Below are positions 12,879 through 37,021 of a stretch of DNA of 39,869 nucleotides, one piece after another. A program made the translations under genes and the position numbers. Source of the stretch: Frankiaceae bacterium (GTDB lineage: Bacteria; Actinomycetota; Actinomycetes; JAFAQI01); the NCBI GenBank assembly GCA_019239875.1, contig JAFAZI010000047.1:1-39869 (forward strand), given 5' to 3'. Below the pieces are notes generated by a model that was not told the DNA's origin, did not search any database, and saw nothing but the letters and a program-made list of their open reading frames with translations. The first letter of the stretch is position 1. Each line of letters starts with the position of its first letter.

Positions 12879-13081
12879 CACAGGACCACGTGCAGAGCCC
12901 GGGAAATCAGGCCCTCGAGAAGGTTGGTCGCGAATCCGCTCGTCAGAATCCGATAGAGAAGTGCCCCGAAGCCACATGCGGCCACCGTCCCGACGGCGTA
13001 CTCCGCCGTCGTCATCCCGTCGTCGTTACGGCACGCGACTACCCACTCCGCCTGCCGGATCGCTGCCCAGAGTCGACGCAT
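12878..13081 (-). CDS. Flp-type prepilin (DUF4244 family)
   Basis: A 67-residue pilin subunit. The leader has 22 residues, then a Tad-type processing site G/MTTAEY (Gly22; Glu27 at +5; Tyr28), then a hydrophobic helix (AVGTVAACGFGALLYRIL) that would pack into the filament core. ATG 13081 has a strong AGGAGG eight bases upstream, in keeping with a highly translated subunit, whereas other genes of the cluster rely on overlap. The 151 bp between this start and the tadC stop may hold its own promoter. Matches Rv3656c in position and size. Confidence 0.88.
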   Translation of the reverse strand: MRRLWAAIRQAEWVVACRNDDGMTTAEYAVGTVAACGFGALLYRILTSGFATNLLEGLISRALHVVL

Positions 13082-13829: not shown

Positions 13830-14608
13830 TCGCGTAGTGCGAAGCGAGCAAGCAGTCGGGTGAGGGCCACGCCGCCGCACTCGAATCCAGCGGCGACCGC
13901 CAGCAGCGCCCAGCCGACTGGTCGATGCAGCAGAAGGGCGAGCGGGTGCGCGCCGATCGCCTCACCGATCAGCAACCCGAAAGCTGGAAGCCCGGCAAGC
14001 AGCAGCATGGTCGCGCGTGGCGCCGCGAGCGCGGCCTGGAGCTCGGCACGCAGCTCGTCCTCCTCCTCGACCGCGACCGCGACGCGATCGAGAACATCGG
14101 CGACCCGCCCGCCCGCGGCATCCGCCACCGACCAAGCGGCCGCCGCCCAGCGCAGGCGTTCGGCGCCTGGCTGCTCAGCACCGCAGCGAAGCACGGCGCA
14201 CGCATCCTGACCACAGCGTCCGGCCGCCGCTGCCGCAGCGACAGTCGAGCCCAGCGGGCCGGCGCCGACCGCAACGGCATCGAGGGCTTCCACCGGCGAG
14301 CGGCCCGCCCGCAACTCGCCCGCGAGTGCGGAGGTGAGCTCGACCACGGCGGACGCCCGGCGATCGCGTTCGCGGGTCGCGCGGCGGGCGTTCACCATAT
14401 GGCGAACCACCACGCCCCCAGTGACGATCGCGCCGGTAGCCACGAGCGGCAGCCGGAGGGCAACGAGCGCGGTGCCGAGGACAGCGGCGGCGGCAAGTCG
14501 GGACGACCGCGACGACCGGCCAACGTCCAGGACCCGAGCGCGTGGCGGCGGGTGGCCCAGCGCGAGGACGAGAGCCGCCGCGAACAGGGCGGCGAACCAG
14601 CGACTCAC
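13826..14608 (-). CDS. tadB: TadB-like type II secretion F domain membrane protein
   Basis: 260 residues. Two N-terminal hydrophobic segments (3-18 and about 38-70), a cytosolic domain with the type II secretion F features ELTSALAGELRAGRSPVEAL and WSVADAAGGRVADVLDRV, and two C-terminal membrane segments (MLLLAGLPAFGLLIGEAIGA and VGWALLAVAAGF). Platform partner of TadC. GTG 14608 overlaps the tadA stop as GTGA. Confidence 0.87.
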   Translation of the reverse strand: MSRWFAALFAAALVLALGHPPPRARVLDVGRSSRSSRLAAAAVLGTALVALRLPLVATGAIVTGGVVVRHMVNARRATRERDRRASAVVELTSALAGELRAGRSPVEALDAVAVGAGPLGSTVAAAAAAGRCGQDACAVLRCGAEQPGAERLRWAAAAWSVADAAGGRVADVLDRVAVAVEEEDELRAELQAALAAPRATMLLLAGLPAFGLLIGEAIGAHPLALLLHRPVGWALLAVAAGFECGGVALTRLLARFALRE

Positions 14609-15759
14609 GCTTCACCCGCAAGCCGAGTCTCCAGTGCCGGTGCGCCCTGGCGCGCAACAACGTCAGTCGGCGTGAACTCGTAGGCGGGCACGACCTGAAC
14701 GTCGCCGGTGCGGTCGATCGCTAGGACGCCGATACCAGCGATCCGCCGACCGCTGGGCTCCCGGACCACGTGCACCACCGCGTCCACGGCCGCGCCGAGC
14801 AGGCTGTGAGCCGCCGAACGCGGTACGCCTGCCCGCGCACACAGTGCCTCGATGCGAGCCGGAAGGTGCTCCGCGCGGTTGGCGTGGATCGTGCCGCATC
14901 CACCTGCGTGGCCGGTGTTCAGCGCGCTCAGCAGATCCATGACCTCCTCGCCACGCACCTCACCGACGACCAGCCGGTCCGGTCGCATCCGGAGCGCCTG
15001 GCGGACCAGGACCTCGAGGGGCACGGCGCCGACACCCTCCGCGTTCGCGCTTCGCCCCTCGAGGCGTACGACGTGCGGGTGATCGGGCCGCAGTTCCGCT
15101 GCGTCCTCCACGAGCACGATGCGCTCGGTGTCAGCGACGAGCGACAGCAGGGTCGAGAGCACCGTCGTCTTGCCGCTTCCGGTTCCGCCGGTCACCAGGA
15201 AGGCGAGACGCGCCGCGACGAGGCGCCGCACCAGATCGGCACCGCCCGGCGGCAGTGACCGCAGGGCAACGAGGTCCGCGACCGAGAACGTCCGCCGGGG
15301 CGGGATTCGCAGCGACAGGCAGGTGCCTTGCGGCGAAAGCGGCGGCAGGACGGCGTGAATGCGAGTGCCGTCCTGAAGCCGGGCGTCGGCGTACGGGGCG
15401 GCCGAGTCGAGCCGCCGGCCGCCGGCCGCAACGAGCCGGACCGCCAGCCGACGTAGTTCGGCTTCGGTCGTGATGCTGATGGCAGACAGCTGCGCGCCGA
15501 GTCCGCGATCCACCCAGACCGCGCCCGGACCGTTGACCAGGACGTCGGTGACGGCCGGGTCGTCGAGCAGTGGTCCGAGCGGACCGGCGTCGCCCGCCGC
15601 GCTGTTGAGCGCGGCGGCGACCTCGATCGCGGTCGCGGTCCCGACCGTGGGCGCGATGTCCCGGATCGCGGTCGCGACCGCTGCGGGATCGAGCGAGCCC
15701 GCCAGCCGACGGCGGACCCGCTCGACGAGGGCCTCGTGACTGGTCGGTTGAAGTGTCAC
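14605..15759 (-). CDS. tadA: TadA/CpaF-type pilus assembly ATPase
   Basis: 384 residues; hexameric cytosolic ATPase that powers Tad pilus assembly. Walker A is GGTGSGKTT (191-199, Lys197), Walker B LVVGE (263-267), and the His box CGTIHAN (288-294). The N-terminal domain carries DVLVNGPGAVWVDR, typical of CpaF. Length matches the actinobacterial helicase/secretion neighbourhood ATPase. GTG 15759 overlaps the cpaE stop as GTGA, so ATPase and localisation factor are coupled. Confidence 0.95.
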   Translation of the reverse strand: MTLQPTSHEALVERVRRRLAGSLDPAAVATAIRDIAPTVGTATAIEVAAALNSAAGDAGPLGPLLDDPAVTDVLVNGPGAVWVDRGLGAQLSAISITTEAELRRLAVRLVAAGGRRLDSAAPYADARLQDGTRIHAVLPPLSPQGTCLSLRIPPRRTFSVADLVALRSLPPGGADLVRRLVAARLAFLVTGGTGSGKTTVLSTLLSLVADTERIVLVEDAAELRPDHPHVVRLEGRSANAEGVGAVPLEVLVRQALRMRPDRLVVGEVRGEEVMDLLSALNTGHAGGCGTIHANRAEHLPARIEALCARAGVPRSAAHSLLGAAVDAVVHVVREPSGRRIAGIGVLAIDRTGDVQVVPAYEFTPTDVVARQGAPALETRLAGEA

Positions 15760-22200: not shown

Positions 22201-22781
22201 GCCGTCACGTGGAGGTAGCGGTTGATGTCGGCCTCGACTTCGGCGGTGCTGCGGTACGGCGAACCGCCGTGCTTGCCGACGACCTTGCCGCTGGCGTCGA
22301 CGAACACCGAGTACGGAGGGCCTTGTCGAAGCAACGCTGTCAGCAACTTCTTGTCGGGGTCGACAACGGACGGAAACCGCACGGGTGGGCTGACGTGCGC
22401 ACCGAAGTCCAGCGCGCTGTTCGCCGAGTCGACCGTGTCGACGCCGAGGAAGCGCACCTTTCCTTTCACGCTGCGATACGCCGCGGACAGGTACTTCTCC
22501 TCGGCCTGGCACGGCTCGCACCACGAGCCCCAGATGTTGACGACGGTCGGTTTGCCGACGAGACCAGCGAGGTGGACCGGGTCGCCCGGGGCGAGGCAGT
22601 CGAGGGTCAGATCCGGCAGCCCGCCAGGCACCGCATTGGTCGACGACTTCGGGCACGCGTCGAGGTTCGCCTGCTTCACCAACTGCGGGTAGGGGTTGAT
22701 GGCGTGGTCGGTGCCGCCGCCAGAGGATGAACATCCGGCGGCCATCGCGGCGACCAGCGACAGCACCAACAAACGCTTCAT
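22197..22781 (-). CDS. TlpA/ResA-like thioredoxin-fold lipoprotein
   Basis: 194 residues. The lipoprotein signal is [17 protein letters not shown] (lipobox ending at Cys17), followed by a Ser/Gly linker and a thioredoxin fold with the redox motif WCEPC (87-91). Extracytoplasmic, membrane-anchored; likely reduces or forms disulfides in exported proteins. MarP, with its structural disulfide, lies two genes downstream and is a plausible partner (inference from context). ATG 22781 overlaps the nth stop as ATGA. Matches Rv3673c. Confidence 0.9.
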
Positions 22782-23494
22782 GCGACCGGCTTCATCTGCG
22801 AAGCGGGTTTGAGGAGCTTGGTCGCGATGGCCGGGTCGACCGGTCCCACGCCGTACGACGGGCACAGCTTCGCCAGCGGGCACACGCCGCAGGCCGGCCG
22901 TCGCGCATTGCACATCCGGCGGCCGTGCCAGATCATCCGGTGCGACAAGCCGGTCCAGTCCTTCTTCTCGAACAGCGAGCCGACCTCGTGCTCGACCTTG
23001 ACCGGGTCCTCCTCAGTCGTCCAGCCGAACCGGCGCGACAGCCGCCCGAAATGCGTGTCGACCGTGATGCCCGGTACGCCGAAGGCGTTCCCGAGGACGA
23101 CGTTTGCGGTCTTGCGTCCGACCCCGGGAAGCGTCACGAGGTCGGCGAGCTTGCGGGGCACCTCACCGTCGTACCGCTCGGTGAGCGCCTGTCCCAGGAG
23201 CATCAAGTTGTTGGTCTTCGCCCGGAAGAACCCGGTCGGCTTGATCAACTGCTCCATCTCGTCCCGGTCGGCCGCAGCCAGGTGGGCGGCGGTCGGATAT
23301 CGCGCGAACAGGGCCGGCGTGACCTGATTGACCATCTTGTCGGTGCACTGTGCGGAGAGGATCGTCGCGACGAGCAGCTGGAACGGCGAGGAGAAGTCCA
23401 GCTCGCAGTGCGCGTCGGGGTACGTGACCTTGAGCACGCGGTCCATCCGTCTCGCCCGGCGTACCAAGGCCGTTCGAGATTCGGACAACGCCAC
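22778..23494 (-). CDS. nth: Endonuclease III (bifunctional DNA glycosylase/AP lyase)
   Basis: 238 residues. The helix-hairpin-helix [14 protein letters not shown] carries catalytic Lys128; Asp146 lies in VDTHFGRL; the [4Fe-4S] cluster loop is Cys195-X6-Cys202-X2-Cys205-X5-Cys211. Removes oxidised pyrimidines and nicks at the abasic site. First gene of the four-gene operon; the start GTG 23494 gives an N-terminus of normal length. Divergent from the RsiG-like gene. Confidence 0.96.
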
Positions 23495-23613
23495 GCTTCG
23501 AGCGTACGGGGAGCGATGCGGTCCTAGCCCGAAGGGGTGACGTGGGGCCGCTGTGCCTCAAGCACCCTCCGAAAACGGCCGATTCGCCGGGTAACAGTTG
23601 CGGAGAGTGACGA

Positions 23614-24144
23614 ATGCCCAACCGGCCGACAGCGGACCGATTCCACGCTCCGCCCGAGCGGAGCGCAGACTTCGCGCACCTTTCGCTGGATGGACTCCGG
23701 CAGTACCGCTCCACGCTGTCCAGCGAGGAGAGCCGCGTGTCGTACTGGCGGCGCATCATCCAGGCGCGCCTGGACCTGGTTCGCGCTGCGGACGCCGGCT
23801 CGACGACGACCGTCGACGATCTTCCGGACGTGTTCGCCGAGGGGCGAGGGGCGGGAGCCCGTACGGCGCTGATCACGATCGTCCCGGTCGACGACATGCC
23901 GCCGCTGCCCGATCTCGGGGCGATCTGGGCGCGCGAGCCGATCGTCGGTAACCGCGAGCACAACAACTCCTTGATCCACGACCTGACGAAGGCCGAGAGC
24001 CAGCTGTCGGCGTACCGCGCGGCCCTGCACCGGCGGCTCGCGAGCGCCACCAGCGAGCTGATCGCGCGATACCGCGAGAGCCCCAACCTCTGCCTCACCG
24101 CCCTGCCCGGCGGCGGGCCGGACCGCAAGTCCGCCGCCCACTGA
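23614..24144 (+). CDS. rsiG: RsiG-like anti-sigma factor with one intact and one degenerate c-di-GMP motif
   Basis: 176 residues, mostly helical. The first helix carries E-X3-S-X2-R-X3-Q-X3-D exactly: Glu39, Ser43, Arg46, Gln50, Asp54. This is the c-di-GMP motif of RsiG, the anti-sigma factor that holds the sporulation/pilus sigma factor WhiG. A second helix repeats the spacing with Glu128, Ser132 and Arg135, but His139 replaces Gln and Ala143 replaces Asp. Streptomyces RsiG has two full motifs in one chain; Rubrobacter RsiG has one and dimerises. This protein has the two-helix layout with a decayed second site. ATG 23614 has GGAG eight bases upstream. No sigma gene is in the window. Confidence 0.75.
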   Translation: MPNRPTADRFHAPPERSADFAHLSLDGLRQYRSTLSSEESRVSYWRRIIQARLDLVRAADAGSTTTVDDLPDVFAEGRGAGARTALITIVPVDDMPPLPDLGAIWAREPIVGNREHNNSLIHDLTKAESQLSAYRAALHRRLASATSELIARYRESPNLCLTALPGGGPDRKSAAH

Positions 24145-24380: not shown

Positions 24381-25055
24381 GTGGAAGGGGTACTGGCGCA
24401 GGCGCCACTGTTCGCTGCGCTCGATGCCGACTCGGCGGCGACGCTCGAGGCGACGCTGACCACCCGCACGCTGGCGCGGGGCCACGTGGTGTTCCGCGAA
24501 GGCGACGACGGCGACCGCTTGTTCATCGTCCTCGAAGGCAAGGTGAAGATCTCCCGAGCCGCGGCCGACGGCCGCGAGAACTTGCTCGCGGTGCTCGGCG
24601 GCGGCGAGATGTTCGGCGAGCTGTCCCTGTTCGACCCAGGTCCCAGGACGGCGACGGTGACCACCGTCACGGAAGCGGTGCTCGCATCGCTGGACCACGA
24701 CGACCTCCGCCCCTTGCTCACGGAGCGGCCGGGGGTGGCCGTGCAGCTGCTGATGGCGCTCGCGCAACGACTGCGGCGTACGAACGAGGCGATGGCCGAT
24801 CTGGTGTTCACCGACGTACCCGGTCGGGTCGCGAAGGCCTTGCTCGATCTGGCCGAGAAGTTCGGCGTGCAGGAGGCCGAAGGGTTGCGGGTCCGCCACG
24901 ACCTGACCCAGGAAGAGCTCGCGCAGCTCGTCGGGGCCAGCCGCGAGACCGTCAACAAGGCGCTCTCCGAATTCGCGCACCGCGGCTGGCTTCGCATCGA
25001 GGGCCGCAGCGTCCTGCTGATCGATCCCGAGCGCCTGGCCCGTCGCGCCCGCTAG
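24381..25055 (+). CDS. crp: Crp-family cAMP receptor transcription factor
   Basis: 224 residues, the same length as mycobacterial Crp (Rv3676). The cyclic-nucleotide domain has the phosphate-binding cassette FGELSLFDPGPRTAT (78-92) with Glu80 and Arg89 as the expected ribose and phosphate contacts. The dimer helix is followed by a winged helix-turn-helix, LTQEELAQLVGASRETVNKA (175-194). GTG 24381 has GGGAGGG upstream. It is convergent with the operon that ends in a complete adenylate cyclase, so ligand maker and receptor are adjacent. Confidence 0.96.
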   Translation: MEGVLAQAPLFAALDADSAATLEATLTTRTLARGHVVFREGDDGDRLFIVLEGKVKISRAAADGRENLLAVLGGGEMFGELSLFDPGPRTATVTTVTEAVLASLDHDDLRPLLTERPGVAVQLLMALAQRLRRTNEAMADLVFTDVPGRVAKALLDLAEKFGVQEAEGLRVRHDLTQEELAQLVGASRETVNKALSEFAHRGWLRIEGRSVLLIDPERLARRAR

Positions 25056-25215: not shown

Positions 25216-28200
25216 TTACTTCAGGGCGTCCAGCGACTTCTGTGTCGCGGCGAGCTCACCGCGCATCTCCGTTGCCCCGGACAGGGCGAGCGCCTGCCGC
25301 AGGGCGAACTTCGCGGCCGGCAGGTCTCCGGCGGCGGCCAGGCAGTGGCCGAGCACCCGCAAGGTGACGATTCGCGAGCGCAGGTCCTGCGCGGGCGTCG
25401 CCATCGCCTGGTGGGCGACCGTCAAGGCCTCCCCCGGCTCACCGAGCTCGAGAAGTACGCCGGCCAGATGTGCCAAGGCTTGGCGTCGCGGAAAGGCCAG
25501 CGACCCGTCCTCGACCGCCTGTGCCTCACGAAGCAGCGGCAGCGCCGCAGCCGCGTCGCCCCGAGCCCGCAGCGCCTGTGCGAGGAGCACACGAGTCCCG
25601 ACCAGCGCCGCGGGCCGGACGTCGAGCTTCTCCACCGCCTCGAGCGCGCCCTTCGCTGCATCCTGCGCACCGCTCGCATCGCCGGTGTCGAGCCGGCAGT
25701 ACCCGATCGCCGACATCGCGAGCGCGCGCGGGATCGGCTGGTGCCCCTTGTCCGCAAGGTCGGCGGCGTGCTCGAGGCGACGGATGGCCTTGCGCGGCCG
25801 ACCGGCGCCTCGCAGCGCGATCCCCGACGCGATCGAGGCGAGGCACATGCCCCACGTGTCGCCGAGCACCTCGAACGAGTCGTACGCGGTGGCCGACTCC
25901 TCCAGCGCGGTCGTGATCTGGCCGAGTTCGGCGGCGGCCAGGGCATCGATCGTCAGGCAGGCAGCCGTCCCCCACTTGTCGCCGAGCGCGCGGCCGAGCG
26001 GCAGCAACCCCTGGGCGAGGTCACGTGCCTGCTCGAGGCGGCCTTGGAGCAGCCGGACGAACGCCTCGGTGCCGGCGCACCACGACAGGCCGCCGTCGTC
26101 GTCGAGACCGGCGAACACGTCGGCCGCGGCCGCAAGCCGGCGTTCGGCCTCGGCGTAATCTCCGCGGGTGGTCGCGTTCCAGGCGAGGTGCTGCAACGCC
26201 CAGCCCGCACCGCGGCGATCACCGACTCGCTCCGCGAGGCTCAACGCCTGCTCGAACCGCTCGTCCGCGGCTCGCAGCCGACCCGCGAGGTAGTCGATCA
26301 AGCCGAGCTGTCGCAGCGCCTCGCCGGCGACCCGGTCGAAACCGGCCTCGCTGGCCGCTGCCAGCGCTGAGACGAGTGCCTCGGCGGCGCGCGCGTCGTC
26401 GCCGCTTCGCCGCAAAATCTCGCCGCGGACCACCAGCGCCGCGGACCTGATGCGCAGATCGGTGGCCTCGAGCGGACCCTCGAGGTCGGCTTCAGCATCA
26501 GCGAACCGGTGCAGCGCGACCCGAGCCGCCGCCCGGCGCACGCGCGCCCGGGACACCACCGCCGCCGGAACGTCGTCACCTGCCAGGTCCAGAGCGCGGC
26601 TGAACAAGCTCTCCGCACGCTCGTTGTCGTCCCGCGCCAGTGCCGCCTCGCCGAGGCGATCGAGTGCGCCGAAGCCGATCTCGCGCGCGGCCCACGCCGG
26701 GTCGCGTGCCGGGAGGTTCATCTCCTCAGCCAGTGCGACCGCCTGCTCCGCCTGCGCGGCGACCAGCGCATCGGTCTCACCCGGAGACCAGTGCAGCCCG
26801 GCGATTGCCCAGCGGGCGACCGTCGTGTGCCGCCGCGCCCGCTCGCTCTTCGGGATCCCCGCGTAGGCGACGTCGCGGGCCAGCGCGTGGGTGAAGGCGT
26901 AGTGCGGCGTCGAGTCACTCGCCGTACCGGTCGGTTGCACGATGCCGCGCGCGACCAGCTCGTCCAACGCAGGCGCGACCGGGTCCTGGCCGCCGTCGGT
27001 GATCGGCTCGAGTGACCGCAGCATGTCGGCCGTGAAGCGGTTGCCGAGCACCGACGCATCGCGAAGCAGCGCGCGAGCGCCTGGCGTGAGGCCGTCGATG
27101 CGCGCAGCGAGCACGGCCTGGACCCCGGCCGGGAGCACATCGCGAGGGAGCTCGCCGGTCAGCCGCCAGCCGTCACCGTCACGCCGGAGCAGGCCACGGT
27201 CGACCAGCAGGTGCAACAGTTCCGCGAGGAAGAAGGGATTGCCTTGGGCTCGCTCGAGCAGCAGCTTGCGGGTCTCCGGATCGAGCTCTGCACCGCTGAG
27301 GTAAGCGCGCAACAGTCGTTCGCTCGCCGCCTCGTCGAGCGGCTGCACCGGCAGCACCTCGACGTCGGGCATCTGGTCCCACCAGGTCGCGGTGAGCAGG
27401 TCGGACCGGCCGACGGTCAGGAACAGGACGGCGCCGAGCACCTCGCTCGCCAGATTGGTGACCGTGCCGAGCAGCTCGCCGGTGGCCCACTGCGCGTCGT
27501 CGATGACAAGGACGAGCGGACCCTCGGCGACGAGTGCGGCGAGAACGGCGACAACCGCCTCGACCGTCGGATCGCGCAGCAGCTCCGTCCCTCCTGGCGT
27601 CGCGTTGTCACGCGGGCCGATCGGCGCGTACTCGACGAGCCCGAGCAGGGCGAGCAGCCGATCGGTCGTCGCCGAGTTGATCGGCCGCCCAGGGTGCAAC
27701 GTCGCAAGTCGGCCCAAGGTACGGCGCACTCGCTGTATGGCGACGTCGAGATCGTCCTCCTCGGTGATGCCGAAGACAGTGCGCATCCATTCCGCGAGCG
27801 CCGACATCTCGCGGCTCTCGCCGTACGGCGGGCAGCGCCCCCACAACACCCGAACGTTCGGCAGCTCTCCGGCGAAGTGGGCCAGCTCGACGGCCAGGCG
27901 AGTCTTGCCGACACCGGCCTCGCCCGTGACCACTACCGACGCCGGCTTGCCGCGCTCGACGACGTCGAGGACCCGGCCCACGAGGCGCCCGAACTCCGCG
28001 TCCCGGCCGATGAACGGCGCCTCCTCGCCGAGACCGAGGCGGGCAGCGCCGGGCGGTCGGAGGCCCATCAGCTCGTAGGCCGCTACCGGCTCACGCTTTC
28101 CCTTCAACCGCAACGGCGGCAGCGATCGCCACGAGGCGATCGACATCGTCGCGAGCGCCGTCGCCCGGCCGGCATAGACGGTGCCCACCCCGGCTGCGTC

Positions 28201-28737
28201 GGACAGCCGCGACGCGGTGTTCACCGTGTCGCCGACGACGGTGTAGGCAAGCGAGGCCTGAACCCCTGCCAGGACCTCGCCGGTGTTGAGGCCGACTCGT
28301 AGGCCCATCCGCCGGCCGCCGCCGCTCTCCTCAGCCATGAGACGGCGGACCGCCTGCTGCATCTGTGCGGCGGCGCGTACCGCTCGTTCGGTGTCGTCCT
28401 CGTGTGCTGTCGGCGCCCCGAACACCGCCATGATGCCGTCGCCGGTGAGCTTGTCGATCGTGCCACCGCAGTCGGTGACCGCATGGCTGAGCTCCGCGAG
28501 CACGTGATCGATGACGACGCCGACCCGCTCGGGGTCGACGTCCTCGGCCCATGCCGTGAAGTCGGAGAGGTCGCCGAAGAGCACGGTGACGATTCGGCGT
28601 TCAGCGGTGGTGTCGGCCGACATCGCCGTCGTGTCCAGCATTGCGCCGCACGAGTAACAGAAGCGGGCGCCGGCGACGGTCGGAGTGCCGCACACCGGGC
28701 ACACCATCGGGGCGTCGATCGGTGGCTGTGAGGTCAC
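25216..28737 (-). CDS. Zinc-ribbon / class III adenylate cyclase / AAA ATPase / TPR multidomain signalling protein
   Basis: 1173 residues. 13-30: double CXXC zinc ribbon (Cys13, 16, 27, 30). About 45-190: class III cyclase with metal Asp56 (FGDLSDF) and Asp100 (LTGDGIMAVFG), adenine-specifying Lys96 and Asp170, and transition-state Asn173 and Arg177 (GDTVNTASRL); all are present, so active adenylate cyclase is predicted. About 240-560: STAND/AAA_16 ATPase, Walker A GEAGVGKT (272-279) and Walker B LVLVIDD (408-414). From about 650 on: TPR-like helical repeats to the C-terminus. Unlike many cyclase-STAND regulators it has no LuxR-type helix-turn-helix. GTG 28737 lies 4 bases after the upstream stop; ATG 28707 is an alternative. 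Confidence 0.92.
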   Translation of the reverse strand: MTSQPPIDAPMVCPVCGTPTVAGARFCYSCGAMLDTTAMSADTTAERRIVTVLFGDLSDFTAWAEDVDPERVGVVIDHVLAELSHAVTDCGGTIDKLTGDGIMAVFGAPTAHEDDTERAVRAAAQMQQAVRRLMAEESGGGRRMGLRVGLNTGEVLAGVQASLAYTVVGDTVNTASRLSDAAGVGTVYAGRATALATMSIASWRSLPPLRLKGKREPVAAYELMGLRPPGAARLGLGEEAPFIGRDAEFGRLVGRVLDVVERGKPASVVVTGEAGVGKTRLAVELAHFAGELPNVRVLWGRCPPYGESREMSALAEWMRTVFGITEEDDLDVAIQRVRRTLGRLATLHPGRPINSATTDRLLALLGLVEYAPIGPRDNATPGGTELLRDPTVEAVVAVLAALVAEGPLVLVIDDAQWATGELLGTVTNLASEVLGAVLFLTVGRSDLLTATWWDQMPDVEVLPVQPLDEAASERLLRAYLSGAELDPETRKLLLERAQGNPFFLAELLHLLVDRGLLRRDGDGWRLTGELPRDVLPAGVQAVLAARIDGLTPGARALLRDASVLGNRFTADMLRSLEPITDGGQDPVAPALDELVARGIVQPTGTASDSTPHYAFTHALARDVAYAGIPKSERARRHTTVARWAIAGLHWSPGETDALVAAQAEQAVALAEEMNLPARDPAWAAREIGFGALDRLGEAALARDDNERAESLFSRALDLAGDDVPAAVVSRARVRRAAARVALHRFADAEADLEGPLEATDLRIRSAALVVRGEILRRSGDDARAAEALVSALAAASEAGFDRVAGEALRQLGLIDYLAGRLRAADERFEQALSLAERVGDRRGAGWALQHLAWNATTRGDYAEAERRLAAAADVFAGLDDDGGLSWCAGTEAFVRLLQGRLEQARDLAQGLLPLGRALGDKWGTAACLTIDALAAAELGQITTALEESATAYDSFEVLGDTWGMCLASIASGIALRGAGRPRKAIRRLEHAADLADKGHQPIPRALAMSAIGYCRLDTGDASGAQDAAKGALEAVEKLDVRPAALVGTRVLLAQALRARGDAAAALPLLREAQAVEDGSLAFPRRQALAHLAGVLLELGEPGEALTVAHQAMATPAQDLRSRIVTLRVLGHCLAAAGDLPAAKFALRQALALSGATEMRGELAATQKSLDALK

Positions 28738-28741
28738 ACCC

Positions 28742-29512
28742 TCACGTCCTGCCGTCGATGAAGTCGAGCTGTGCCAGCACCGACTGCTTGGCAGCGGGCC
28801 ACAACGACTGGTCGACGTCGGCGTAGACCCGCTCCACGACAGCGTCGGCGTCCGTGGCTCCTGCCGCGAGCGCGGCACGCACCTGCTCGAGCCGCTCCGC
28901 GCGGTGTGCAAGGTAGTACTCGAGGACCGCCAGCGGGTTGTCGAGCACGGGGCCGTGGCCCGGCAGCAGGATGTCGACCTCGGTGGCCGCGAGGTCACGG
29001 AGGCGTTGCAACGAGTCGAGGTAAGGGCCGAGCTGGCCATCGGGGTGCGCCACCACCGCCGTACCCCGTCCTAGCACCGTGTCGCCGGTCAGGAGCGCGC
29101 GATCGTTCTCGAGCAGGAACGAGACCGAGTCACTGCTGTGACCGGGCGTCAGGACGGTGAGCCAGTCGAGGCCGGCGAGCGACGTCCGGCCCGTGGCGTC
29201 GGACAACGGTTCGGCGGCGATGCACAGCTTCGGATCACGGGCGACGACCGGGGCACCCGTCAGCTCGTGCAGGCGAGGCGCCGCCTCGCAGTGGTCGAAG
29301 TGGCCGTGGGTGAGCACGATCAACGAGATCGATCCGAGAGCGGCGACCTCGTCGACGTGGCCGTCCTCGATCGGTCCAGGATCGATCACGACCCGTTGCT
29401 CGCCGCCGGGCTGTTGCAGCACCCAGGTGTTGGTGCCGTCGAGAGTCATCAGCCCGGCATTCGGTGCCAGCATCCGCGACGCGCACCGGGTGACCGGCTC
29501 GAGCCTGCTCAC
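28742..29512 (-). CDS. Metallo-beta-lactamase-fold hydrolase (LACTB2-like)
   Basis: 256 residues. The two-metal site is THGHFDH (His69, His71, Asp73, His74), with further ligands in TPGHSSDS, LLTGDTVLG and LLPGHGP. A C-terminal helical extension (YYLAHRAERLEQVRAAL) is typical of LACTB2-type enzymes, some of which are RNases. The substrate is not fixed by sequence. Matches Rv3677c by position. GTG 29512 overlaps the Nudix stop as GTGA, and the gene is followed four bases later by the cyclase. Confidence 0.9.
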   Translation of the reverse strand: MSRLEPVTRCASRMLAPNAGLMTLDGTNTWVLQQPGGEQRVVIDPGPIEDGHVDEVAALGSISLIVLTHGHFDHCEAAPRLHELTGAPVVARDPKLCIAAEPLSDATGRTSLAGLDWLTVLTPGHSSDSVSFLLENDRALLTGDTVLGRGTAVVAHPDGQLGPYLDSLQRLRDLAATEVDILLPGHGPVLDNPLAVLEYYLAHRAERLEQVRAALAAGATDADAVVERVYADVDQSLWPAAKQSVLAQLDFIDGRT

Positions 29513-34639: not shown

Positions 34640-37021
34640 GTGCGTCGCGCTCCCCTGACCCAGAGCATCAGCCTGCTGCTCGCGGTCAGTGTGGTCGCCG
34701 GGGTCCTGATGGCCGGGATGCTGCTGCCGTTCGTCGGCGGCGTCGGCCTGGTGGCGCGCAATGCGAGCGACAGCTTCACGGTGCCGGCGATCCTCAAGCG
34801 GAAGCCGCTGCCACAGGTCACCAAGGTGCTCGACGTCAACGGCCACACGATCGCGACGTTCTACGACGAGTACCGCAAGAGCGTCCCGCTGTCGGCCATC
34901 CCGCTGATCACGCAGAAGGCGCTGATCGACACCGAGGACGTCCGGTTCTACGAGCACTCGGGTCTCGACATCCGTGCTGCGCTTCGGGCGTTGCTGTCGA
35001 ACGGGTCCTCCGGCGGCGTGTCCCAAGGTGGCTCGACGATCGCGCAGCAGTACGTGAAGAACGTGCTGGTCGAGAACGCCCGCACCAAGAAGCAGCGCGA
35101 GGCCGCGGTCGCCGACACCCTGGCCCGAAAGATCAAGGAAGCCCGGTACGCGATCTACCTCGAGCAGCACTACTCGAAGTCCCAGATCCTCGACTGGTAC
35201 TTCAACATCGTCTACTTCGGTGACGGCGCGTACGGCATCGGCGCGGCGGCCAAGCACTACTTCAACGAACGCGTCCAGGATCTGACCCTTGTCCAGAGCG
35301 CGATGCTGGTCGGCCTGATCCAGTCACCCGAGGCCTACAACCCGCACTACTACCCGGACGCGGCGAAGGTACGGCGCAACGTCGTACTGGGTCAGATGCT
35401 GAAGTACGGCTCGATCGACCAGCCGACCTACGACGCCGCCATCACCAAGCCGATCAAGCTGGACATCCACACGCCGGGCAACACGTGCTCATCCTCGAAG
35501 TACCCGTACTTCTGCAGCTACGTGGAGAACGTCTTCGACAAGACGCCGAAGCTCGGCTCGGATCTGCTGCGTCGGGGCCTCACCATCAGCACCACCCTCG
35601 ACCCGAAGATGCAAAAGGCCGCGAACGCCGGCATGCACCAGTACGTCTACTCATACGAACCCAGCAAGGTCGCGGGGGCCGAGGCGCTGATCGAGCCGGG
35701 CACCGGCAAGATCCGGGCGCTCGCCGTGAGCACGAAGTACGGCAACGACCCGAAGAAGCACGAGAACTCGATCAACTACGCGGTCGGCACGAAGTACGGC
35801 GGCAGTGCGGGCTTCCACGCGGGGTCGACGTTCAAGCTGTTCGTTCTGGCGGCCGCGCTAAAAGAAGGCATCCCCCTCAGCACGCGGATCTCGTCACCGA
35901 CCACGGTGACGATCGATGGCCTGACCAACTGCAAAGGTCAGCCGGTCGAGTCCTGGAGCCCCAGCAACGCGGGTGACGGCGAGTCGGGCACGTTCAACCT
36001 CGAGACCGGAACCTGGTACTCCGTCAACACGTTCTTCGCGCAGCTGGAGGAGCGGACCGGACTGTGCGAGCCGGTGAAGCTCGCCGCCGCCATGGGCGTC
36101 AAGCAGGGCACCGGCAAGCCCATCGAGCAGGTCGCACCATTCGTCCTCGGCGCCGGCGCCCAGACTGGCTTCACCCCGCTCAACCTGGCGGCCGCTTACG
36201 CGACGATGGCAGCGCACGGCAAGTACTGCCGGCCGATCGCCATCACCAAGATCGTCGACCCGCGATCGGGTACGACCTACGACCCGCCCCAGCCCAAGTG
36301 CGAACAGGTGGTGCCCGAGGGTCTTGCGAACACAGTGACCGACATCCTGCACGGGGTGCTGACCGTGCCGCGCGCGACGGGAACCATCGACAACCTGACG
36401 GGGCGACCCGCTGCCGGCAAGACGGGCACGCTCGACAACAACACCGGATCGTGGTTCGCCGGCTACACCCCGCAGCTGGCCTCCGCGGTCTGGGTCGGAA
36501 TCCCCTCCGCGCCGAACAAGAGCCTCAACTACCTGCGGATCGGGCCGACCTCCTACAGCGCGGTCTACGGCGCGACGATCGCCGGCCGGATCTGGCAGTC
36601 GACGATGAACGCGGCGTTGCAGGGGTACCCGATCCTGCAGTTCACCGGGCCCAGCTCGTACTACGAGATCGGCGTTCGCCTGACGATCCCGAACGTCGTC
36701 GGACAGAGCCCCAGCGACGCCTCGGCGACGTTGTCGCAAGCTGGCTTCACTCCGCAGATCGTGGCGGGCACGGTGTACAGCACTCAGAAGCTCGGCACGG
36801 TCGCGCGCACCGATCCGCCAGGTGGCTACAGCGCGTCGAAGGGCACCGTCGTCCGGATCTACCTGTCGAACGGAACGCCTGCGCCGGTCAACACGCCGAA
36901 GCAGCACCCCAGCAACCCGCCGCCGACCAACCCCGGTGGCGGGCCGACGACGACGGCGTCACCGTCGCCCAGCAACACCCCCACGAAGGGCCACGGTCAC
37001 GGCCCCGGCGGGGGGCACTAA
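34640..37021 (+). CDS. ponA2: Class A penicillin-binding protein with PASTA domain (PonA2 type)
   Basis: 793 residues; makes and crosslinks peptidoglycan. One N-terminal membrane helix (about 9-30). The GT51 glycosyltransferase shows TEDVRFYEHSGLD (catalytic Glu99) and GGSTIAQQYVKN. The transpeptidase shows STFK (Ser396, Lys399), SVN (461-463) and KTG (594-596). One PASTA domain (about 675-745, IPNVVGQSPSDASATLSQAG) is followed by a Pro/Thr/Ser/Gly tail. Matches Rv3682. GTG 34640 has GGGAGG abutting it with no spacing; TAGGCT at 34629-34634 suggests a leaderless start instead. The stop overlaps the convergent yqeY stop by 4 bp. Confidence 0.96.
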   Translation: MRRAPLTQSISLLLAVSVVAGVLMAGMLLPFVGGVGLVARNASDSFTVPAILKRKPLPQVTKVLDVNGHTIATFYDEYRKSVPLSAIPLITQKALIDTEDVRFYEHSGLDIRAALRALLSNGSSGGVSQGGSTIAQQYVKNVLVENARTKKQREAAVADTLARKIKEARYAIYLEQHYSKSQILDWYFNIVYFGDGAYGIGAAAKHYFNERVQDLTLVQSAMLVGLIQSPEAYNPHYYPDAAKVRRNVVLGQMLKYGSIDQPTYDAAITKPIKLDIHTPGNTCSSSKYPYFCSYVENVFDKTPKLGSDLLRRGLTISTTLDPKMQKAANAGMHQYVYSYEPSKVAGAEALIEPGTGKIRALAVSTKYGNDPKKHENSINYAVGTKYGGSAGFHAGSTFKLFVLAAALKEGIPLSTRISSPTTVTIDGLTNCKGQPVESWSPSNAGDGESGTFNLETGTWYSVNTFFAQLEERTGLCEPVKLAAAMGVKQGTGKPIEQVAPFVLGAGAQTGFTPLNLAAAYATMAAHGKYCRPIAITKIVDPRSGTTYDPPQPKCEQVVPEGLANTVTDILHGVLTVPRATGTIDNLTGRPAAGKTGTLDNNTGSWFAGYTPQLASAVWVGIPSAPNKSLNYLRIGPTSYSAVYGATIAGRIWQSTMNAALQGYPILQFTGPSSYYEIGVRLTIPNVVGQSPSDASATLSQAGFTPQIVAGTVYSTQKLGTVARTDPPGGYSASKGTVVRIYLSNGTPAPVNTPKQHPSNPPPTNPGGGPTTTASPSPSNTPTKGHGHGPGGGH

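Follow-up and report, generated by a model that had tools for sequence, protein, structure and literature searches.

The protein encoded at positions 23614 to 24144 (+ strand, ATG start, 176 residues) of the window, by which the whole stretch of 39,869 nucleotides analysed here is meant, belongs to a group of proteins that apparently forms a second, so far undescribed branch of the c-di-GMP-armed anti-sigma factor RsiG. The name RsiG-B is coined here for RsiG proteins of this type. The reading that we favour, and that we consider rather probable from sequence comparisons, is that RsiG-B would be a second, paralogous c-di-GMP-dependent anti-sigma factor, probably acting on a WhiG-type sigma factor and subject to a FlgM-like feedback; its ligand, its partner, the activity of its promoter and the feedback are predicted features of this proposal.

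The RsiG-B protein and its clade

Profile, match to solved RsiG proteins and predicted fold all place the window protein in the RsiG family. It matches the Pfam RsiG profile PF22802 with an E-value of 3.1e-17 and 62.5 bits (gathering cut-off 27), and the phmmer matches obtained with it include the RsiG proteins of Rubrobacter (7lq4, E 2e-4) and Streptomyces (6pfj); no NCBIfam model matching the window protein was found. In the AlphaFold2 model (mean pLDDT 84) the chain forms an intramolecular hairpin of two helices, residues 25-60 and 114-155, with pLDDT values above 90 along most of both helices. The best four Foldseek matches of this model are all RsiG chains (probability 0.99-1.00, TM 0.42-0.51), the S. 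venezuelae RsiG chains being the closest PDB matches (probability 1.00). The VIA Z values of the RsiG chains are 9.9 and 9.5, with unrelated coiled coils only slightly lower, and the modelling is moderate evidence for an RsiG fold. These results agree with the family assignment made in the preliminary description, whose reading frame, residue numbers and motif spacings are also exact. The orthologues of family f1, to which the window protein belongs, share the N-terminus MPNRPTAD.

The pattern E(X)3S(X)2R(X)3[Q/H](X)3D, which characterizes the RsiG family, is present exactly in helix 1, where the translation reads E39-X3-S43-X2-R46-X3-Q50-X3-D54 (positions 23728 to 23775, + strand). In helix 2 the translation reads E128-X3-S132-X2-R135-X3-H139-X3-A143 (positions 23995 to 24042, + strand), with alanine replacing the aspartate. 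Since the exchange of Q for H is known to be tolerated in the RsiG motif (PMC8325347), A143 is the sole residue that does not fit the accepted motif. The window protein differs by A143 from canonical twin-motif RsiG, which has a full second motif on the antiparallel partner helix, and by the presence of helix 114-155 from the short single-motif RsiG proteins, which are without a second motif helix. The interhelix loop (positions 23794 to 23952, + strand), as delimited by alignment and predicted secondary structure, contains the residues R83, P96, P99 and W105, whose conservation is specific for RsiG-B and is not seen in canonical RsiG.

Of 99 genomes belonging to the same class, 57 encode window-type proteins. 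Named genomes were scanned as well; this set overlaps partly with the first, some of its records are mis-named metagenome bins (for example 'Bifidobacterium breve'), and it has 80 window-type loci, in Frankiales, Acidothermaceae, Nanopelagicales, Motilibacter and Nocardioides. After removal of duplicates there are 102 window-type and 35 canonical proteins, classified without ambiguity. Canonical RsiG and RsiG-B split into distinct groups (SH-aLRT 99) in a tree of 136 proteins, which was calculated with a quick method and has several long branches, and the window protein groups outside canonical RsiG. In a survey of 2021 a second RsiG copy was reported for one genome only, that of Acidothermus cellulolyticus (PMC8325347); this copy may be RsiG-B, because an Acidothermus sp. 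locus (L078) carries RsiG-B. On a second RsiG family, the literature searched gave nothing other than this survey.

Additional copies are seen in some families. The genomes of family f10 (G020, G044, G061, G077 and G092) each have more than one RsiG-B-type match, plus canonical RsiG, and in G020 and G077 one of these copies is at the nth/crp locus described below and the other is elsewhere. Genome G041 (f31) has three divergent RsiG-family loci (C1:228231, 418869 and 2743813), one of which, L049, is long-branched, with several motif residues missing.

Conservation of the predicted c-di-GMP half-sites

The motif of helix 1, on whose retention among orthologues the preliminary description had relied, is kept across the 102 RsiG-B proteins (E in 101, S in 102, R in 102, Q/H in 101 and D in 102). 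The corresponding counts for helix 2 are 97 for E, 101 for S/T, 102 for R, 101 for H/F and 56 for D, the latter being replaced by A (22), S (8), G (7), T (4), E (4) or Q (1). In canonical RsiG both motifs are complete in 34 of 34 proteins, with the Q of helix 2 exchanged for F or H in five. When only the 46 RsiG-B proteins without this Asp are considered, E, S and R of helix 2 are kept in all 46 and H in 45, such that, a single H-to-F exchange aside, nine of the ten motif positions are invariant. All but one of these 46 proteins are inside one clade of 50 rows, and the D state needs seven changes over the whole tree. Because the remaining motif residues are almost perfectly fixed, the D-less site is, as far as the sequences tell, a stable half-site and not a product of decay. 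What the motif Asp recognises is the outer, splayed guanine, and of the two Asp contacts seen in the Rubrobacter complex, one is already as long as 3.6-3.9 Å (PMC8325347); a c-di-GMP site that functions without one Asp is therefore plausible, and it is possible that the window protein would bind c-di-GMP asymmetrically, as had been proposed.

The term 'decayed', which had been applied to helix 2, does not describe these data. That RsiG-B could be a decaying duplicate of RsiG, with an absent or weakened function, is strongly disfavoured: the loss of the helix-2 Asp and the variability at this single position would agree with it, but it is contradicted by the retention of the other motif residues in the D-less proteins, by the identity of 66-71% within the family of the window protein, together with its wide retention, and by the conservation of the promoter boxes described below. 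Dimerisation via helix 1 had also been suggested; a homodimer of this kind, as in Rubrobacter and with helix 2 unused for c-di-GMP, is very improbable as well, although the motif of helix 1 is perfect and single-motif RsiG proteins dimerise in this way (PMC8325347). Helix 2 is conserved, with R135 in 102 and E128 in 97 of the 102 RsiG-B proteins, and the hairpin is predicted to be intramolecular, with high pLDDT values over most of both helices.

Promoter-like sites and gene neighbourhoods

A WhiG/flagellar-type promoter, TCAAG-N15-GCCGATTC, is predicted at positions 23558 to 23585 (+ strand) in the nth/rsiG-B intergenic region of the window. It ends 28 bp before the ATG and has a score of 16.4 with the weight matrix described below. 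Sites of this type are enriched in pilus loci. With at most 2 mismatches allowed, the published flagellar/WhiG consensus is matched 39 times in pilus loci (395 kb) and 14 times in crp-side and other loci (390 kb), whereas the reversed consensus has 5 sites in each set; for the pattern TVAAG-N14..16-GCCGAT-NR the counts are 27 in pilus loci (468 kb) and 4 in other loci (756 kb), and scrambled patterns of this type have 0 sites in the same 468 kb. Many of the TVAAG-type sites are directly upstream of pilin, pilM, Roadblock or pilB genes, and several are within predicted genes.

The TCAAG form was picked from the pilus loci, and the pattern was fixed before the upstream regions of rsiG-B were tested. 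An exact-type site precedes 23 of the 102 rsiG-B genes (0.04 expected) and 0 of the 35 canonical rsiG genes. A weight matrix for which only pilus loci served as training set, applied with a threshold score of at least 11, finds a site upstream of 52 of 100 rsiG-B genes, where shuffles predict 0.85 and the opposite strand has 3; for canonical rsiG the count is once more 0 of 35. About half of the rsiG-B genes, including most of those of Nocardioides and of family f14, are without a clear site directly upstream. Among close relatives the promoter boxes are kept and the spacers differ, which favours a promoter function. Weight matrix matches downstream of rsiG-B are mostly 200-290 bp further on, at the start of crp, where they share a coding-like TCxGCCGACGG repeat and are probably coding; the downstream match of locus L137, at pilB, is exempt from this explanation.

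In the source genome (4.15 Mb in 206 contigs) a similar site, with a score of 18.3, is found at positions 13015-13042 of locus L301 (contig C30), upstream of a Roadblock gene that heads a gene run towards pilB; this pilus cluster is partly readable, pilB being cut by the contig end. Over the whole source genome the published consensus TAAA-N15-GCCGATAA shows no enrichment (32 versus 36 in the control), a second count of promoter matches gives a weak excess (24 versus 9 in the control), and the TMAAG-N-GCCGATA form has 2 matches versus 3 in the controls. The rsiG-B promoter is the sole intergenic one among the strong weight matrix matches in the window; the other strong match, at 36099, has no GCCGAT and is inside a predicted gene. 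The window also contains a T2SSE ATPase gene (positions 14605-15759, - strand), which fits a Tad-type cluster, and no WhiG-type promoter is found near this cluster, the search at up to 2 mismatches having given none in the whole window. The pilus control that the preliminary description had brought up is supported for type IVa pilus clusters elsewhere, where WhiG-type sites are enriched, and the suggested link to the Tad cluster of the window is not.

Outside Nocardioides, almost all loci with readable flanks have rsiG-B between a divergent nth gene and a crp gene on the same strand as rsiG-B. In the window these neighbours, identified by profile and synteny, are the endonuclease III gene nth (positions 22778 to 23494, - strand; TIGR01083, E 5e-77) and a gene for a Crp-like cAMP regulator (positions 24381 to 25055, + strand; cNMP_binding and HTH_Crp_2). 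Adjoining crp, at 25216-29040 (- strand), is a gene for a protein with an adenylate/guanylate cyclase domain, AAA and TPR regions, which is kept in Frankiales-type loci and is possibly a cAMP source beside a cAMP regulator. In the Nocardioides loci rsiG-B is found between a pilT-like gene and pilB (MshEN and T2SSE), in a cluster that includes pilN, pilO and pilC. At locus L136, which groups with Nocardioides and whose bin, labelled Acidobacteria, is probably mis-labelled, rsiG-B adjoins chemotaxis-like and GGDEF-like genes (named by eye). The five genomes of family f14 have RsiG-B and no canonical RsiG, and in the two f14 clusters that were read (L209 and L212) the gene of a second WhiG-type sigma factor adjoins the prepilin peptidase gene pilD, 6-8 kb from rsiG-B; this sigma factor is over the FliA_WhiG cut-off and under the stricter WhiG cut-off.

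The link with type IV pili is also observed at the level of genomes. Among the 99 genomes, RsiG-B and PilT occur together in 55, two (each about 80% complete) have RsiG-B without PilT, six have PilT without RsiG-B and 36 have neither, i.e. PilT is present in 55 of the 57 RsiG-B genomes; the Fisher values of this co-occurrence are tiny and uncorrected for phylogeny, the per-family table being the fairer view. Six genomes have canonical RsiG without PilT, and RsiG-B is absent from all six. PilT is absent from the sufficiently complete genomes that have canonical RsiG and no RsiG-B (Streptomyces-like f19; f9).

Proposed mode of action and comparison with known systems

The WhiG homologue that the preliminary description had called for is present in the source genome as a single gene (C141:47890-48567; NF004935, RNA polymerase sigma factor WhiG, E 1e-130); two SigB-like sigma factors and 17 GGDEF matches are found in this genome as well. 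A canonical RsiG, intact in both motifs, is encoded there too (C122:11205-11690; locus L039, 11187-11741, - strand), and its gene adjoins another that looks DUF4388-like, as judged by eye from the sequence. The K-x3-G-R residues of WhiG, which contact c-di-GMP in the solved complexes (PMC8325347), are kept in the WhiG of the source genome and in the f14 cluster sigma factor, and are absent from both SigB-like sigma factors. Together with the WhiG-type promoter and the f14 cluster, this points to WhiG as the probable partner of RsiG-B.

In the proposed mechanism the two long helices would fold back on each other within one chain, helix 1 giving a complete c-di-GMP half-site and helix 2 contributing E, S and R as well as an H for stacking; the Asp for recognition of one of the two outer guanines is missing from helix 2 in the window lineage. 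RsiG-B in its c-di-GMP-bound form would sequester WhiG. As rsiG-B has its own WhiG-type promoter, active WhiG should raise the level of RsiG-B, which would result in negative feedback. Canonical RsiG, without such a promoter, would then be a standing brake, and RsiG-B a feedback brake tied to pilus regulons. More tentatively, it is possible that a widespread RsiG-B, one Asp short, is transcribed by the very sigma factor that it inhibits, that standing and feedback anti-sigma factors act on one WhiG, that the half-site sets a different c-di-GMP threshold and that WhiG drives type IV pili.

The main doubt concerning WhiG comes from the conserved loop and from residues of the C-terminal tail, which differ from those of canonical RsiG, so that the partner surface may differ and a partner other than WhiG is possible. 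It would be unlikely, but conceivable, that RsiG-B is not an anti-sigma factor but a c-di-GMP receptor within the WhiG regulon, with a downstream target such as the machinery of pilus extension. Its position between pilT and pilB in Nocardioides, its WhiG-type promoter and its loop residues would agree with such a role; in most lineages, however, rsiG-B is next to nth and crp, away from pilus genes, the fold and the C-terminal RYRE...L tail match RsiG, and family f14 combines RsiG-B with a WhiG-type sigma factor in the cluster in the absence of canonical RsiG. Binding to another sigma factor or regulator, such as a SigB-like sigma factor or the neighbouring Crp, by which c-di-GMP and cAMP signalling would be linked, is doubtful to a greater degree. 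The nth/rsiG-B/crp order, conserved across many families, the diverged loop and the two SigB-like sigma factors of the source genome are in favour of it, but the SigB-like proteins are without the c-di-GMP-touching residues, the adjacency to crp is lost in Nocardioides, where the pilus link appears, and the promoter ties rsiG-B to WhiG.

RsiG–WhiG has been described as the only known c-di-GMP-targeted pair of sigma and anti-sigma factors (PMC8325347). If RsiG-B acts on WhiG as proposed, a common second RsiG branch with a WhiG promoter and a pilus context would make this switch a feedback circuit, and WhiG control of pili would extend beyond Rubrobacter to many Actinomycetes. RsiG-B would also be a natural set of half-site proteins with which it could be asked how much of the symmetric site for the c-di-GMP dimer is needed. 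The initial view of a single degenerate protein undersold RsiG-B.

As in the twin-motif RsiG of S. venezuelae (6pfj, 6pfv; PF22802), a single chain with an antiparallel helix pair has a motif on each helix, followed by a RYRE-type C-terminal region, and WhiG is encoded in the same genome. Unlike this protein, RsiG-B forms a separate paralogous clade in which the helix-2 Q has become H, the D is often lost and another loop is conserved; it has its own WhiG-type promoter, and canonical RsiG is also found in the genome. The single-motif RsiG proteins of Rubrobacter and Thermoleophilia (7lq2-7lq4) provide the closest sequence match for helix 1 and are linked via WhiG to type IV pili, but they are short one-helix homodimers, whereas RsiG-B has both helices in one chain. 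With FlgM–FliA there is an analogy only, in that transcription of rsiG-B is predicted to depend on the sigma family that RsiG-B would inhibit; FlgM is unrelated in sequence and fold, and it is relieved by export, whereas RsiG-type factors are relieved by loss of c-di-GMP.
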